From Pseudomonas sp. R5-89-07 (lineage in GTDB: Bacteria > Pseudomonadota > Gammaproteobacteria > Pseudomonadales > Pseudomonadaceae), in the NCBI RefSeq assembly GCF_003851685.1, contig NZ_CP027727.1:3162001-3226000 (forward strand): a stretch of 64,000 nt of DNA, written 5' to 3'. Below, in pieces: positions 1 to 5,467 of this stretch. The notes beneath the pieces are model-generated. The model saw nothing but the letters and a program-made list of their open reading frames with translations, searched no databases and was not told where the DNA came from. A program made the translations under genes and the position numbers. Each line of letters opens with the position of its first letter. Within the stretch, counting starts at the first letter, position 1.

Positions 1-520
1 TCAGTGAACCGGCTGGAATTACCACCAGACCATCACCATCGCCGCGCAACCAATCATCAGGTTGTACCCGCACGCCACCCAGCGTCACGGGCGCCTGGAT
101 CGCTTCGACACGCACCCTATCCTTGCCGGTGCGCATCCAGTTACCTCGGGAGAAGATCGGATAGTTGAGCTCCAACGCACGATCAACGTCGCGGCAGATG
201 CCATCAATCACGGTACCGGCCAAGCATTTGCGGGCGGCGGTAGAAGTCAGCAAATCACCCCAAACGGTGGTGTCCTGCCGCGACTGGTTGTCGATCACCA
301 CCACCTGGCCGGCTTCAAGGTCATCGATGTAATCACCGACCGAGCCGCCGTCCCGGCCAATAGGGCCGTAGCGCAGGGTCCAGGCTTTACCCGTGAGCTG
401 GAACGTGCGGTCCAGTGGCATGATGTCGGTGCACTGGCAAACGATGTTCAGGCGGTCCATCGCATCGCTGAGGTCGGTACAACTCAGGGCGTTAAGGCGG
501 GTAAGAATAGAGGTTTGCAT
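1..520 (-). CDS. RraA-family aldolase/decarboxylase, 3' end outside window
   Basis: Open reading frame entering from position 520 and still open at base 1, so the C-terminus is missing (173 codons visible). It starts with ATG (518-520) after a good Shine-Dalgarno AAGGAAGG. The protein begins MQTSILTRLNAL and carries RraA/MenG-fold hallmarks: a central AGQVVVIDN strand, then DGICRD (substrate- and metal-binding Arg/Asp), a P-V-LGG-V segment, and GDGDGLVVIP near the end. Characterised members of this family are class II pyruvate aldolases (4-hydroxy-4-methyl-2-oxoglutarate aldolase) and/or oxaloacetate decarboxylases; others (RraA itself) inhibit RNase E. The gene lies 27 bases downstream of a 2-hydroxyacid dehydrogenase and probably shares its mRNA, which favours a metabolic role on 2-oxo acids. 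Exact substrate unknown. Confidence 0.85.
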   Translation of the reverse strand, partial: MQTSILTRLNALSCTDLSDAMDRLNIVCQCTDIMPLDRTFQLTGKAWTLRYGPIGRDGGSVGDYIDDLEAGQVVVIDNQSRQDTTVWGDLLTSTAARKCLAGTVIDGICRDVDRALELNYPIFSRGNWMRTGKDRVRVEAIQAPVTLGGVRVQPDDWLRGDGDGLVVIPAGSL

Positions 521-547
521 GATGTGGCCTTCCTTGTGTCCTATAGG

Positions 548-1603
548 TTAACCCGCGATTGCGGCGGCACTGAATGCGTGGATCTTGTCGATGATCTGGC
601 GTGACGCCGTCCTGATTGCCGTGGTGGTATTGCCGGCAATGTGCGGCGTCAGTTGCGCGTTGGGTATAGGGGCCAACGGCGAGTCGAAGCGGTCTTTTTC
701 CAGGGCAAAGGTATCGATGGCGACCGCCTTGATATGCCTGGGAAACCGGCTCATGAAGGCTGCCAGCTGGTGCTCGTCGACGATCCCGCCGCGAGCAGTA
801 TTGATGAGGATTGAACCTTGGCGCATCTGCCGGAACTCGTCCGTGCCGAACAAGCCTCGGGTCGACGTGGTGAGCGGTACGTGGATCGAAACGATGTCAG
901 CCTCGGCCAGTAGCTGCTCAAGGCTTGCCCGTCGTTCAAGCTCAAGACTGCGCGCCACTGCTTCGGTAAAACGTTCGGACCCGGTGGCGATCACCTTGAT
1001 GCCCAACGCCGAAGCCTTGCGCGCTACCTGACGGGCAATACTGCCGGTGCCCACCAGCCCAAGCGTCAGTTCGGCGTATTCGGGGGTGGGTGCCAGCGTG
1101 CCTTTTGCCCAATGCCCCCTGTGCGTTTCGGCGTTGTAGTAGTCCAGGTCGCGGGATAGAAACAACGCCTGGGCCACGACGTATTCGGCAACGGCAGCCG
1201 CGTTGGAGCCCGGCGTGTTGAGTACCGCCACGCCACGCTGCTCGCACTCGAGCCGATCAATATGATTGACTCCCGTGCCGGCCTGGGCGATGGCACGCAG
1301 TGGCGTGGTCAACGCGGGAGAGGTGGCGGCGCGGATCAGGCTGGCGCCAAGGGGGATGTTCAGGCGCGTCTTGAACACGCTGTACCCCCCGGCCCGAGTC
1401 ACGGCGGCGATAAAGGCAGGCTCGTCATGGCAGTTGATTTCGGCATATCGAATGCGCGTGGTGTAGTGCTGCCGGATGCGGTCCTTGTCCGCGAAATAAT
1501 GCAGGTTGAGGGTGACGTCCAGGCCCAGTTCAAGAAAGCGATCGACTTCCTCAAACAGCAACGGCGGGCCGGGGGCATCCAGTATCAGGATGGGAAATGC
1601 CAT
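548..1603 (-). CDS. D-isomer-specific 2-hydroxyacid dehydrogenase family protein
   Basis: 351 residues. NAD(P)-dependent oxidoreductase interconverting 2-hydroxy and 2-oxo acids. The Rossmann nucleotide-binding motif LGLVGTGSIARQVA lies in the middle of the protein, the catalytic Arg sits in INTARGGIVDE, and the catalytic His in LTPHIAGNT near the C-terminus. The region between them (AIDTFALEKDRFD) is not the usual DVFxxEP, so the acid-base Glu is displaced and substrate range cannot be guessed. The ATG at 1603 has an AGAGGA ribosome site. It lies between the PEPC-like gene and the RraA-family gene, all on the minus strand, and probably forms one unit with them. Confidence 0.85.
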   Translation of the reverse strand: MAFPILILDAPGPPLLFEEVDRFLELGLDVTLNLHYFADKDRIRQHYTTRIRYAEINCHDEPAFIAAVTRAGGYSVFKTRLNIPLGASLIRAATSPALTTPLRAIAQAGTGVNHIDRLECEQRGVAVLNTPGSNAAAVAEYVVAQALFLSRDLDYYNAETHRGHWAKGTLAPTPEYAELTLGLVGTGSIARQVARKASALGIKVIATGSERFTEAVARSLELERRASLEQLLAEADIVSIHVPLTTSTRGLFGTDEFRQMRQGSILINTARGGIVDEHQLAAFMSRFPRHIKAVAIDTFALEKDRFDSPLAPIPNAQLTPHIAGNTTTAIRTASRQIIDKIHAFSAAAIAG

Positions 1604-1635
1604 ACAGTTGGTCCTCTTGGAGGGTAGCGCTTGCC

Positions 1636-1659
1636 GATACCCAGGTTTCCCTGGGTATC
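1636..1659. other. 9-bp stem-loop between PEPC-like gene and dehydrogenase
   Basis: Perfect inverted repeat GATACCCAG / CTGGGTATC with a 6-base loop, just downstream of the PEPC-like stop codon and upstream of the dehydrogenase start. There is no T-run on either side, so it is more likely an mRNA-processing or stabilising hairpin, or a weak attenuator, than a full terminator. Confidence 0.4.
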
Positions 1660-1667
1660 GCGGTTAA

Positions 1668-4358
1668 TCACCAGGTGAAATGGTGGGCGCTTGTGGGATC
1701 GACCAGACCCACATCGGTGCTCACGGCCGCAAGGAACCCGCTGTAGAAATCATTCAGCGACGAAGACTGGATGAACTCGGGATTGCTTTTGGCGTAGATC
1801 AGAAACAACCGATAGATTCTCAGGTTCTTTTCCTTGCGGTAGACCTCTGCCTTGAGGCTGGGCCACAGGTTGAGCAAGCTGCCTTCCTTGATTCTCCATG
1901 GGTCCGCCGGTTCGGTGCCGGTACTGGCTTTGTACACAAAGCGTTTACCTTCAATCACTTCCAGGTGCAGGCTGGCCAGCAGTTGCTCGGCCGTACCGAC
2001 AGTTTCGGTCTGCAAGGCTTCAGCCAGCGACAGGATGTGAGCCTTTTCCGGGATGCTACCGGTCAAGGTCAGCCAGGCGCATTTGAGATCTGTCCGCGCA
2101 ATGGCGTAGGCCATGCCTTTGACGTAGGTGTGAAAGCTCTCGTCCTCGTTGAAGGCCTTCGACAGGTGCGCTGCCGGCTCTTGCGCGAACTGCCCGACGC
2201 CGATCAGTTCGCTGTGCAACCCACCGGCCAGCAAGGCGCGGGTCCAGGGAATCGCCCGAATCGCATCGGGTCGCGATTCGAAAACCTTGATGTTGAAGAT
2301 ACGAGAAGGCGGTCGGGTCCCCTTGGCGGTGGCCCTGACTACATCGAATCGCGCCAGATCCCGCAGTAGCGACGGCAGCGCCGGGTGCTCGAAGAACGTC
2401 GCCTGGTAGCGTCGCACCACCTGCGCCCAGCGTTGAATCCTGCCAGCAATGACATCTTCGCCAGGCTGCGGCTGGGGCTCGGCGTGCATACGGTACAACT
2501 GGCTGAGGAAGCTGACGGACTGGTTGCGGGTCAACAGATGAGCACGCATCTCTGCGCAACCGGCCAGCATGAACCGGGTTTCCGGGCCCTCCAATGCGCC
2601 GAACTCCTGCAAGGTTTCGGCGATCACGCCGTTACACCGTGCGTGTTCTGCGCCCATGATGACGTGGACGACCACCTCGATACCGTAGCGGGCCGCGATC
2701 AGCTTATGCTGGTTGGCAATCGCCATGTTTAGTTTGTGCATGGCCTTGCCGCCTTGCTTGCCAGTGTCGCTGGGGCCAAATGTGATGTACTGACGGTTGC
2801 CCCGCGTTGCCAGATGCGCCCGGTACAACGGGTTTTCGTACAGCTCATGCACCGTGGCAAGCGTGCGCTCGGCACCTGCCAAGTCTTCGGGTTGCAGGGC
2901 GATGTCGATACCGTCTCGTACCTGGGCCGCCCTCATCAAAAACAGCACCTCCAGCGCACTGAGAGCCGAGGTGTACTCGGCGATCCCGTGGATTTTCATC
3001 CGATCGCGATAATGGTCGATCATTTCAAACCGCTCGAGCGCGTTGCGCGCATCGTGCATGCGGATATAGCTCGGGTCCTGCTCCATCAGCGCGATGTAAT
3101 CCTGGCCGGCGTATTGCTTGGCTTTCTTGGTGTAAATCGAGGTAGTGCGTTGCAGATACCCTTGCCACAGCACAGCGGGGGTCTGGGCTTCCCCGTCCTC
3201 CAGCGCGACCTCAAGCGCGGCCTGCCGCGCACGCTCATCCAGTTGGTGATAGTGCTGGCCCTGGCCCAACCCGATGGTTTCCAGCCATTGGCTGGAAAGA
3301 ATCTCATCGACCACGCTGCTGAACATCTCGGCGTTTTCACGAAACTCGATTTCCAGGTAGTGAAAGCCAAACGCATGCACCCGCAGCAGCAGACGGTCGA
3401 TGGCGGCCGGTTGGGTAAAACGGATACTGCCCAGGGCGTCAATCAGTTCGGCGGGATGCTCGAAGTGCCCGGGCTGATCCTTGCCCAGGCGTGCACGAAT
3501 CTCTTCCAGGCGATGCCGTGCGCCGCCGTCTTTGATCAGGCTGTCGATATCTGCGATGTAGCGATTGCGCAGCGCAGTTTCCAGCGCCACGACCAGGGTT
3601 TCAGTGTGCTGATTGGTGTCATAGGGGCGACCATCCTTGTCGCCGTATAACCAGGTGAACAACGTCAGCCATTTGTCCTGTGGCGCCAGGCCCAAGGCAT
3701 GATGCGCGTCGGGCAACGCGTCATACATACTGTCGGCGTAAAAAATCTGCGACTCGATATCGGTGCCATTACTGCCCGACCATACGGCGTCGTATAGCTC
3801 AAGCAGGATCTGCGCAGTGACTTGAGGCTTTTTGAGGCCGCGGTCTTCGACGTGCTGTGCCAATTTCTGCAAGACCAGCACGACGGAATGCTTGAGCTGA
3901 TCGGTCTCTTTGCACAGCAGCCCCAGGCTGATATTTACCCCCGACGGCGCAGCAATCAACTGAGGGTCAAGCGTAATCAACTGACGGGGCAGGCTGGCCT
4001 GCGAGGCAATCTGGGTCGCTACACTCCTGACCGACAATTCGAACAGCAGCTGTTTGATCAGCAACAATTTCCAGAACGCCTCGACGTCTTTACTGGAGCG
4101 GGATTCGAAGAACGCCTTGCCCAAGGCAGCCGCCAATTTCGAATCAGCCTTGTCCAGATACGACAGCGTATCGATTTCAGCCAAGATCCTCAGACAGGCG
4201 CGAGTGTGCGGGGTTTGGGAGGCATCGTCATCCGTGTTTGCCTTTAGCGCCTGCTCCAATGCTCGCCATAGAACGTCATGCAGTAACGCGGGGTTGGTAT
4301 GGCCGATTGAGGGGCGAGTCGATGCATTTTCCAGTATGGAGTTGATCACATGATTCAT
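1668..4358 (-). CDS. Divergent phosphoenolpyruvate carboxylase-like protein
   Basis: 896 residues from ATG 4358, which has a GAGG site 9-10 bases upstream; a TTG at 4430 would add 24 residues. Length and several blocks fit bacterial PEP carboxylase: TWLYGDKDGRPYDTN (canonical GGDRDGNP), FHYLEIEFRENAE (canonical LDIRQxS region), FGPSDTGKQGG (canonical GYSDSxKDGG) and RAIPWTRALL (canonical RAIPWxFAWTQ). However, the catalytic TAHPTE motif is not recognisable, the glycine loop FHGRGGxxGRGG is replaced by HVIMGAEHARCNG, and the conserved C-terminal NTG is absent (the protein ends HHFTW). It is therefore a PEPC-fold paralogue that probably does not run the normal PEP-to-oxaloacetate reaction. Next to 2-oxo/2-hydroxy acid enzymes, so a related carboxylation or lyase reaction is the natural guess. 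Confidence 0.75.
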   Translation of the reverse strand: MNHVINSILENASTRPSIGHTNPALLHDVLWRALEQALKANTDDDASQTPHTRACLRILAEIDTLSYLDKADSKLAAALGKAFFESRSSKDVEAFWKLLLIKQLLFELSVRSVATQIASQASLPRQLITLDPQLIAAPSGVNISLGLLCKETDQLKHSVVLVLQKLAQHVEDRGLKKPQVTAQILLELYDAVWSGSNGTDIESQIFYADSMYDALPDAHHALGLAPQDKWLTLFTWLYGDKDGRPYDTNQHTETLVVALETALRNRYIADIDSLIKDGGARHRLEEIRARLGKDQPGHFEHPAELIDALGSIRFTQPAAIDRLLLRVHAFGFHYLEIEFRENAEMFSSVVDEILSSQWLETIGLGQGQHYHQLDERARQAALEVALEDGEAQTPAVLWQGYLQRTTSIYTKKAKQYAGQDYIALMEQDPSYIRMHDARNALERFEMIDHYRDRMKIHGIAEYTSALSALEVLFLMRAAQVRDGIDIALQPEDLAGAERTLATVHELYENPLYRAHLATRGNRQYITFGPSDTGKQGGKAMHKLNMAIANQHKLIAARYGIEVVVHVIMGAEHARCNGVIAETLQEFGALEGPETRFMLAGCAEMRAHLLTRNQSVSFLSQLYRMHAEPQPQPGEDVIAGRIQRWAQVVRRYQATFFEHPALPSLLRDLARFDVVRATAKGTRPPSRIFNIKVFESRPDAIRAIPWTRALLAGGLHSELIGVGQFAQEPAAHLSKAFNEDESFHTYVKGMAYAIARTDLKCAWLTLTGSIPEKAHILSLAEALQTETVGTAEQLLASLHLEVIEGKRFVYKASTGTEPADPWRIKEGSLLNLWPSLKAEVYRKEKNLRIYRLFLIYAKSNPEFIQSSSLNDFYSGFLAAVSTDVGLVDPTSAHHFTW

Positions 4359-4904
4359 GGGTTCAAGCCTCGATAATTGTGCAAATCCCTTGTTTGCAAT
4401 GCGTCGAACAGACACACGCAAAATCATCAATGTCCCAGGCTTAACCCACTGCGTCGCAACGAACGGTATTCACCTGTTCGCCGACAGAAAGCCCCCTTGT
4501 CGGTACCGAATAACGGCAAAAAATTGAAACAATTTGTTACATCCATTAGCAATAAAGCATGTCCGCTATTTCTCGACAAAAGACCGTTTTGGAATATTCA
4601 GCTGAAAAGAAATGATAGGAAGCTAATAAAAATCACAACGCTGAGTTGCTATTCCTCACCTTTGTTTTCTCTAACGTGCTGATTATTCAAAGTTAAATTT
4701 GATGGATCAAAGTCCGATTGCGCCAGGGAGAATATCGAGTGGGAATCGCCTGCGAACGCAACCTAAATAATTCTTCATAAGCACAATTTCAGGAGGAGCA
4801 AAGCAGGCTCATTGCTACCCAATTTATTGCCCAGTATGACGATCAGAACCCTGGCCCGTTCGAACCGACATGGCGTTCGCAACTAAAACCGTTGATACAC
4901 GCAC
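4359..4904. other. AT-rich intergenic region, upstream of PEPC-like gene
   Basis: About 545 bases, clearly lower in GC between 4500 and 4790 than the flanking genes. It should hold the promoter of the PEPC-like gene. An isolated GGAGGAG at 4792-4798 has no ATG, GTG or TTG at proper spacing. No gene or clear operator was recognised. Confidence 0.5.
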
Positions 4905-4946: not shown

Positions 4947-5405
4947 TCACTGCAAACTCACCTGACGCAGCTCAGGCTTGGCCTCGCCACCAATCGTGAT
5001 GCGTTTGGGTTTGGCCTCTTCAGGCACCTCACGCAGCAGGTCGATGCTCAGCAACCCGTTGGTCAGCGATGCGCCGCGTACTTCGATGTGGTCCGCCAGG
5101 CGGAACGACAGCCGGAAAGCACGCTGGGCAATGCCCTGGTGCAGGTAAGCGACCTTCTCGTCGGTTTCGCGTTTTCCGCCGGAAACCGTCAGAACGCCCC
5201 TTTCGACCTGGATATCCAGATCCTCCTCGGTCAGGCCAGCCACGGCGATGACAATGCGGTACGCGTCGTCACCGTGCTTTTCCACGTTGTGAGGTGGATA
5301 GGAGTTCGGAGCCTCGCTGCGCAGCGCCGACTCGAACAGGTCATTGAAGCGGTCAAAGCCCACCGATTGACGGAACAGTGGGGCCAACGAAAGGGTAGTA
5401 GCCAT
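4947..5405 (-). CDS. ibpA: Small heat-shock protein, Hsp20/IbpA family
   Basis: 152 residues. ATP-independent holdase chaperone that binds unfolding proteins in the cytoplasm and hands them to DnaK/ClpB. The N-terminal segment FRQSVGFDRFNDLFESAL is typical of proteobacterial IbpA, followed by an alpha-crystallin domain (roughly residues 38-130) containing PPHNVEKHGDDAYRI, ERGVLTVSGGK and GLLSIDL, and a C-terminal PKRITI (the I-x-I anchoring motif). Upstream lies a close match to a sigma-32 promoter, a 60-base leader and the Shine-Dalgarno CAGGAG. Single transcription unit with its own terminator. Confidence 0.95.
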   Translation of the reverse strand: MATTLSLAPLFRQSVGFDRFNDLFESALRSEAPNSYPPHNVEKHGDDAYRIVIAVAGLTEEDLDIQVERGVLTVSGGKRETDEKVAYLHQGIAQRAFRLSFRLADHIEVRGASLTNGLLSIDLLREVPEEAKPKRITIGGEAKPELRQVSLQ

Positions 5406-5467
5406 TTTAAAATCTCCTGAGTTTCTCCAAGTGATTTAGTCCGCGACCCGCTTTCGGCATCGCGTGA
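5406..5467 (-). promoter_or_regulatory. Possible ROSE-type RNA thermometer in ibpA leader
   Basis: Approximately 60-base 5' leader between the sigma-32 promoter and the ibpA start. The 3' part can fold as GGAG-AAA-CUC next to the CAGGAG ribosome site, giving a weak hairpin with mismatches, and a second GC-rich hairpin (GCGATGCC...GGGTCGC) precedes it. Pseudomonas ibpA leaders are known ROSE-class thermometers. The fold here is an inference by eye and the usual UYGCU anti-SD motif was not found. Confidence 0.4.

Follow-up and report, generated by a model that had tools for sequence, protein, structure and literature searches.

Genes of the unit and their surroundings

The window, a stretch of 64,000 nucleotides, corresponds to C1:3162001-3226000 in the Pseudomonas host genome, which consists of a single contig of 5,997,145 bases. 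At its edge three genes follow one another on the minus strand in the order PEPCL, dehydrogenase and RraA, with intergenic gaps of 64 and 27 bases (Table 1), and they are presumably co-transcribed. PEPCL denotes the protein related to phosphoenolpyruvate carboxylase (PEPC). Its mechanically called reading frame starts at a TTG 24 codons upstream of the ATG. The full-length RraA-family protein of 217 aa is encoded at L011:15867-16520 of the same genome.

Table 1. Features of the PEPCL unit in the window
Feature	Position	Strand	Remarks
PEPCL, PEPC-fold protein without catalytic His and R581	1668..4358	-	896 aa, ATG at 4358
D-2-hydroxyacid dehydrogenase	548..1603	-	351 aa; PF02826 and PF00389
RraA-family gene, 5' part	1..520	-	PF03737; gene continues past window edge
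Conserved leader of the unit	4359..4820	-	blastn between loci in different surroundings

The initial annotation named the two downstream products a 2-hydroxyacid dehydrogenase and an RraA-family protein, and Pfam matches bear this out. The dehydrogenase scored 149.7 bits against the NAD-binding domain PF02826 (cut-off 25.1). It shares PF02826, PF00389 and the catalytic Arg, Glu and His with PGDH-like D-2-hydroxyacid dehydrogenases; these residues, which we take to be the catalytic set of that group, were located by eye in NTARGG, DTFALE and TPHIAG. The protein stayed under all listed NCBIfam equivalog cut-offs and forms a family of its own, which at about 45-50% identity reaches Trinickia, Burkholderia and Kitasatospora. 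The source name (S)-sulfolactate dehydrogenase is attached to some relatives, which are about 43% identical over 70% of the query. The RraA part in the window scored 119.7 bits against PF03737 (cut-off 24.5), a domain common to RraA-like aldolases (CHA/HMG aldolase 3noj, uncharacterised 3k4i), and the (I/V)DGxxRD stretch of the protein, presumably the RraA-family motif, aligns with 3k4i. The full protein scored below the cut-offs for CHA/HMG aldolases (NF006731, 73.0 vs 179; TIGR02798, 70.5 vs 304.5) as well as below the NCBIfam cut-off for the RNase E regulator.

Next to the unit an ordinary ROSE_3 RNA thermometer (window 5400-5466, minus strand; 57.1 bits, gathering cut-off 43) directly precedes a small heat-shock gene at 4947-5405. 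Behind the unit and on its strand the host genome carries TauE-, HMGL- and MR/MLE-family genes (L011:12060-14941), with a hairpin and about 0.9 kb in between; 8 other PEPCL genomes lack the HMGL gene. A phage-type integrase lies at L011:10589-11623. Five proteins searched against PADLOC-DB (known anti-phage defence) matched 0 families.

The order PEPCL, dehydrogenase, RraA in one direction was found at 16 of 16 Pseudomonas loci (the window's own, L004-L010, L063-L065 and L067-L071), possibly including strain duplicates (L005 and L070 look alike, perhaps also L008 and L064). A scattered gene order is thereby excluded within Pseudomonas. PEPCL is unbroken at 14 of these loci. In L007 its frame breaks near residue 314, while in L010 only residues 1-182 and 770-896 are matched and RraA is split in two pieces. 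Large internal deletions in PEPCL were seen in L010 and in L052/L058 (genome G526); as the frame of the dehydrogenase in L010 is uninterrupted, decay of the unit can start with PEPCL, its first gene. All three genes are under purifying selection: dN/dS over 10 pairs from five genomes was 0.06-0.13 for PEPCL, 0.06-0.10 for RraA and 0.09-0.22 for the dehydrogenase, values that are rough since some dS exceed 1.

Shared flanks divide the 16 loci into seven kinds of surroundings. Five loci (own, L004, L007, L068, L071) have a common upstream flank on the hsp20 side and differing downstream flanks, three (L005, L009, L070) adjoin tmRNA and an integrase, four (L008, L063-L065) have a common downstream flank, and L006, L010, L067 and L069 each stand in unique surroundings. 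The DNA common to different surroundings comprises the leader, all three genes and, beyond these, some 50 bases. The shared leader measures 239-466 bases by blastn; that of L006 gave no blastn match and was recovered by multiple alignment only. An identical hairpin follows RraA on the 3' side in 9 of 13 unit ends examined. Inspection by eye revealed other inverted repeats behind RraA in L006 and L067 and none in L005 and L009. Most likely the unit is a self-contained cassette that moves horizontally. Beside the unit of P. salomonii an opposite-strand gene run starting with an M24-family peptidase (L009:13279-18213) looks like another small metabolic cluster.

Fold and active site of PEPCL

PEPCL scored 73.9 bits against PF00311 (PEPcase; gathering cut-off 22.4), which was the only family found in the Pfam scan at E 0.001; the archaeal-type PEPC model gave no match. 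Against the ppc equivalog of NCBIfam it reached 66.1 bits, far short of the cut-off of 815, and it forms a separate long branch relative to canonical PEPC. In the predicted model the PEPC fold extends over most of the chain (742-744 residues in structural comparison) at 16-17% identity in the best matches, with pLDDT below 50 at 240-246 and 674-693, adjoining active-site motifs. The likeness is to bacterial/plant-type PEPC (EC 4.1.1.31; E. coli Ppc 1jqn, maize, Arabidopsis) and much weaker to archaeal-type PEPC (3odm). Each of the 9 genomes with PEPCL that were searched, G526 among them, encodes a full housekeeping ppc, and the host has a normal ppc elsewhere, in line with the initial view that PEPCL is distinct from the normal anaplerotic enzyme. 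These observations support PEPCL as a distant relative of PEPC and not the housekeeping enzyme.

We compared 23 PEPCL rows with 25 canonical PEPC rows, using E. coli numbering checked against K-12 Ppc. The canonical rows were selected for HPT, so that H138 is found in 25/25 of them by construction; five loci were dropped from this set, three holding HPT and two being partial frames. All motifs previously read from the 896-residue protein (GDKDG, RAIPW, PSDTGKQGG and MGAEHARCNG) were found. The kept residues (E. coli=PEPCL) are W248=W236, R396=R340, E506=E491, D543=D531, K546=K534, R587=R574, R699=R682, R703=R686 and R713=R701. The metal ligands E491 and D531 occur in 23/23 PEPCL rows, E506=E491 being given by L-INS-i and gapless HMMER alignments while HHalign places a gap there. 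PEPCL therefore shares with bacterial/plant-type PEPC the fold and the metal ligands, and also R396, K546, R587, R699 and R713, whereas H138, H579, R581 and M538 are replaced.

The TAHPTE region, which had been called unrecognisable, can be aligned and reads LLCKETD. As originally suspected, the catalytic His is absent, and it is not merely shifted: its position is Lys150 in the window protein and Gln in the Bradyrhizobium-type proteins (Q in 15/23, K in 8/23 rows). The reported replacement of the glycine loop holds in part. R581, invariant in 25 canonical rows, is gone (I 15, M 6, V 1, T 1), but the R587 position is kept as Arg574 in 23/23 PEPCL relatives. The H579 position is I in 14/23 and V in 9/23, although the canonical rows are not uniform here either (H 21/25, D 4/25). 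The M538 position is T in 23/23.

Of 70 canonical columns conserved to at least 95%, PEPCL keeps 29 and switches 12 to another fixed residue, while 19 are relaxed and 10 unaligned. Newly fixed residues are Cys149, Glu151, Thr526, Glu571, His572 and Asn576. Invariant residues occupy 76/101 positions in the motif windows, which were picked after the alignment had been viewed, versus 96/795 elsewhere. Two subtypes can be distinguished: one with CKET and EHARCNG (8/23 rows; Pseudomonas and the Pantoea-type P0006 and P0007), the other with CQET and GYEHARSNG (15/23 rows; Bradyrhizobium-type).

According to a review (PMC10176493), the metal of PEPC is bound by a Glu and an Asp, carboxyphosphate is deprotonated by a conserved His in a flexible loop, and CO2 occupies a hydrophobic pocket. 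With the metal site kept but important elements for bicarbonate and CO2 handling missing, PEPCL probably catalyses a reaction other than that of PEPC. M538 presumably lines the CO2 pocket, and we take K546, R587 and R699 to be near bicarbonate as well; as these three are kept, the division into a PEP side that is retained and a CO2 side that is lost is not clean.

Distribution and gene neighbours

At least 22 PEPCL protein clusters exist; two protein searches yielded the identical set, each scoring only about 8,000 candidates, so that there may be more. Named loci encoding close relatives belong to Pseudomonas in 7/7 cases. In the Pseudomonas sample 14/298 genomes matched at E 0.001, of which 9 carry PEPCL (8 full length, G526 broken); the other 5 matches are weak and resemble housekeeping ppc. 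The class sample gave matches in 61/369 genomes, the best after the own genome reaching 50 bits. At E 1e-60 we detected 3/398 genomes in the phylum sample, all of the same genus, and 3/265 in the Bradyrhizobium sample. The assignment of these genomes to Bradyrhizobium is suggested by family proteins of that name and by a 16S piece that we take to be of this genus. Among 72,556 plasmid records 2 carry PEPCL, both from Pantoea ananatis, and IMG/VR contributed 3 loci. The PEPCL unit is rare and mobile among bacteria.

On both Pantoea ananatis plasmids PEPCL is accompanied by an MFS protein closest to DHA2/EmrB efflux pumps, a BKACE-family protein and a dehydrogenase 36% identical to that of the window. 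About 8 kb from the unit, the OC5a plasmid has a gene group (L044:1-3851) that may be a further biosynthetic cluster; it encodes a SidA/IucD/PvdA-type monooxygenase, a cupin, a class I tRNA ligase-like protein and an FAD oxidoreductase. In 3/3 Bradyrhizobium genomes PEPCL lies with an FAD monooxygenase and a class II DAHP synthase; the L076 copies were the ones used for family searches, those of L075 and L077 being recognised by position and sequence. The L076 monooxygenase scored 303 bits to 2rgj/3c96, which we take to be PhzS; the DAHP synthase reached 702.6 bits with TIGR01358, above the cut-off of 614.7, and 619 bits with 5uxm. DAHP synthase uses PEP in making a C-C bond and can serve as a model of the type of reaction proposed below for PEPCL. 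It belongs to another family, and no homology between the two was found in any search here.

The dehydrogenase also occurs by itself. It was detected in 8/149 sampled Pseudomonas genomes, and in four of these (G416, G463, G467, G469) neither PEPCL nor RraA lies within the 18 kb read. Two Streptomyces plasmid stretches likewise contain the dehydrogenase, with PEPCL and RraA absent, and on two Pantoea agglomerans plasmids a gene table, which is incomplete, lists a 36% relative but not these partners. The dehydrogenase subfamily (L092-L095, L088-L091) therefore probably also serves an independent function. The initial suggestion that the three genes form one pathway is in keeping with the order preserved in Pseudomonas but not with the other partners found outside this genus, and the dehydrogenases of other Pseudomonas and Streptomyces lacking PEPCL speak against one fixed three-step pathway.

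Possible reactions of PEPCL

The neighbours of PEPCL are enzymes of oxo- and hydroxy-acids, C-C lyases (RraA, BKACE) or DAHP synthase, with an efflux-type pump in one lineage. Because of these neighbours and of the kept and replaced residues we favour a PEP-enolate C-C step in a small biosynthetic cassette. Our tentative first choice, held with somewhat less than even confidence, is that PEPCL is a metal-dependent, non-carboxylating enzyme on a PEPC scaffold, joining a PEP enolate with a partner other than CO2 within a horizontally moving metabolic cassette. Retention of the metal and most PEP-side residues, together with replacement of the CO2-freeing His, R581 and the pocket residue, in part by newly fixed polar residues, fits a PEP-type enolate with another partner. 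The ligand of the kept Mg/Mn site would be PEP or a similar enol phosphate or 2-oxo acid; PEPCL would handle a pyruvate-type enolate and either join it to a polar partner, a carbonyl or carboxylate compound, or release it from one. The adjoining dehydrogenase would reduce or supply a 2-oxo acid and RraA would make or break a C-C bond beside the oxo-acid, perhaps for a small organic acid or an antimetabolite. The fold relation, the lost and newly fixed residues, the order kept in Pseudomonas, the varied chromosomal surroundings, the purifying selection and the separate ppc are results of the computations, whereas catalysis, co-transcription, substrate, direction and the biosynthetic role of the unit are put forward as inferences. 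The lineage-dependent partners and the dehydrogenases found without PEPCL count against this enzymatic interpretation, as do the incomplete separation of PEP and CO2 sides, the variation of H579 among canonical rows, the HHalign gap at E506 and the low-pLDDT stretches beside active-site motifs.

The main rival, which appears rather unlikely, is a partial PEPC reaction, either decarboxylation of a 3-carboxy-2-oxo acid via a metal-bound enolate or hydrolysis of PEP or a like enol phosphate, yielding the 2-oxo acid and phosphate. It would agree with the kept metal ligands and R396/R713 combined with loss of the His of the CO2 step; E. coli PEPC retains PEP hydrolysis in the presence of bicarbonate when H138 or R587 is altered, and NCBIfam names include oxaloacetate decarboxylases among the RraA relatives. 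However, Cys149, Glu151, Thr526, Glu571, His572 and Asn576 suggest, beyond mere loss, a site that accepts an additional ligand, and a plain PEP phosphatase would waste PEP. Less likely are the two remaining alternatives. PEPCL could still be a PEP carboxylase, a differently regulated second copy with Lys150 or His572 in place of His138, as its fold, metal site, several kept arginines and the source name phosphoenolpyruvate carboxylase on 10/22 clusters might suggest; the Lys (8/23) or Gln (15/23) at the His138 position, the loss of R581, the low ppc equivalog score and the normal ppc in 9/9 genomes make this improbable. A non-catalytic regulator or scaffold, compatible with the lost His and with the housekeeping PEPC in 9/9, seems if anything slightly more improbable, as both metal ligands persist in 23/23 rows and conservation peaks in the active-site motifs.

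Extending the proposed C-C step, PEPCL might found a class of PEP-dependent C-C synthases (aldol/Claisen) whose CO2 site is rebuilt for a polar co-substrate. This scheme, which we regard as doubtful as a whole, would include two or more specificities, one marked by Lys150/Cys575 in units with the dehydrogenase and one by Gln150/Tyr570/Ser575 in Bradyrhizobium-type units with DAHP synthase. PEPCL would then drive small, mobile biosynthetic cassettes of bacteria associated with plants and soil.

PEPC is a central carbon-fixing enzyme and is usually taken to perform one reaction. If our interpretation is true, a natural lineage that has the metal site but has exchanged carboxylation residues and fixed new ones would demonstrate that the PEPC scaffold is adaptable to other chemistry and would offer a starting point for engineering PEP-driven C-C bonds; the database names of the clusters labelled as carboxylase would then need correcting. 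Both the residues of PEPCL and its neighbouring genes are well enough defined to be taken straight into enzyme assays.
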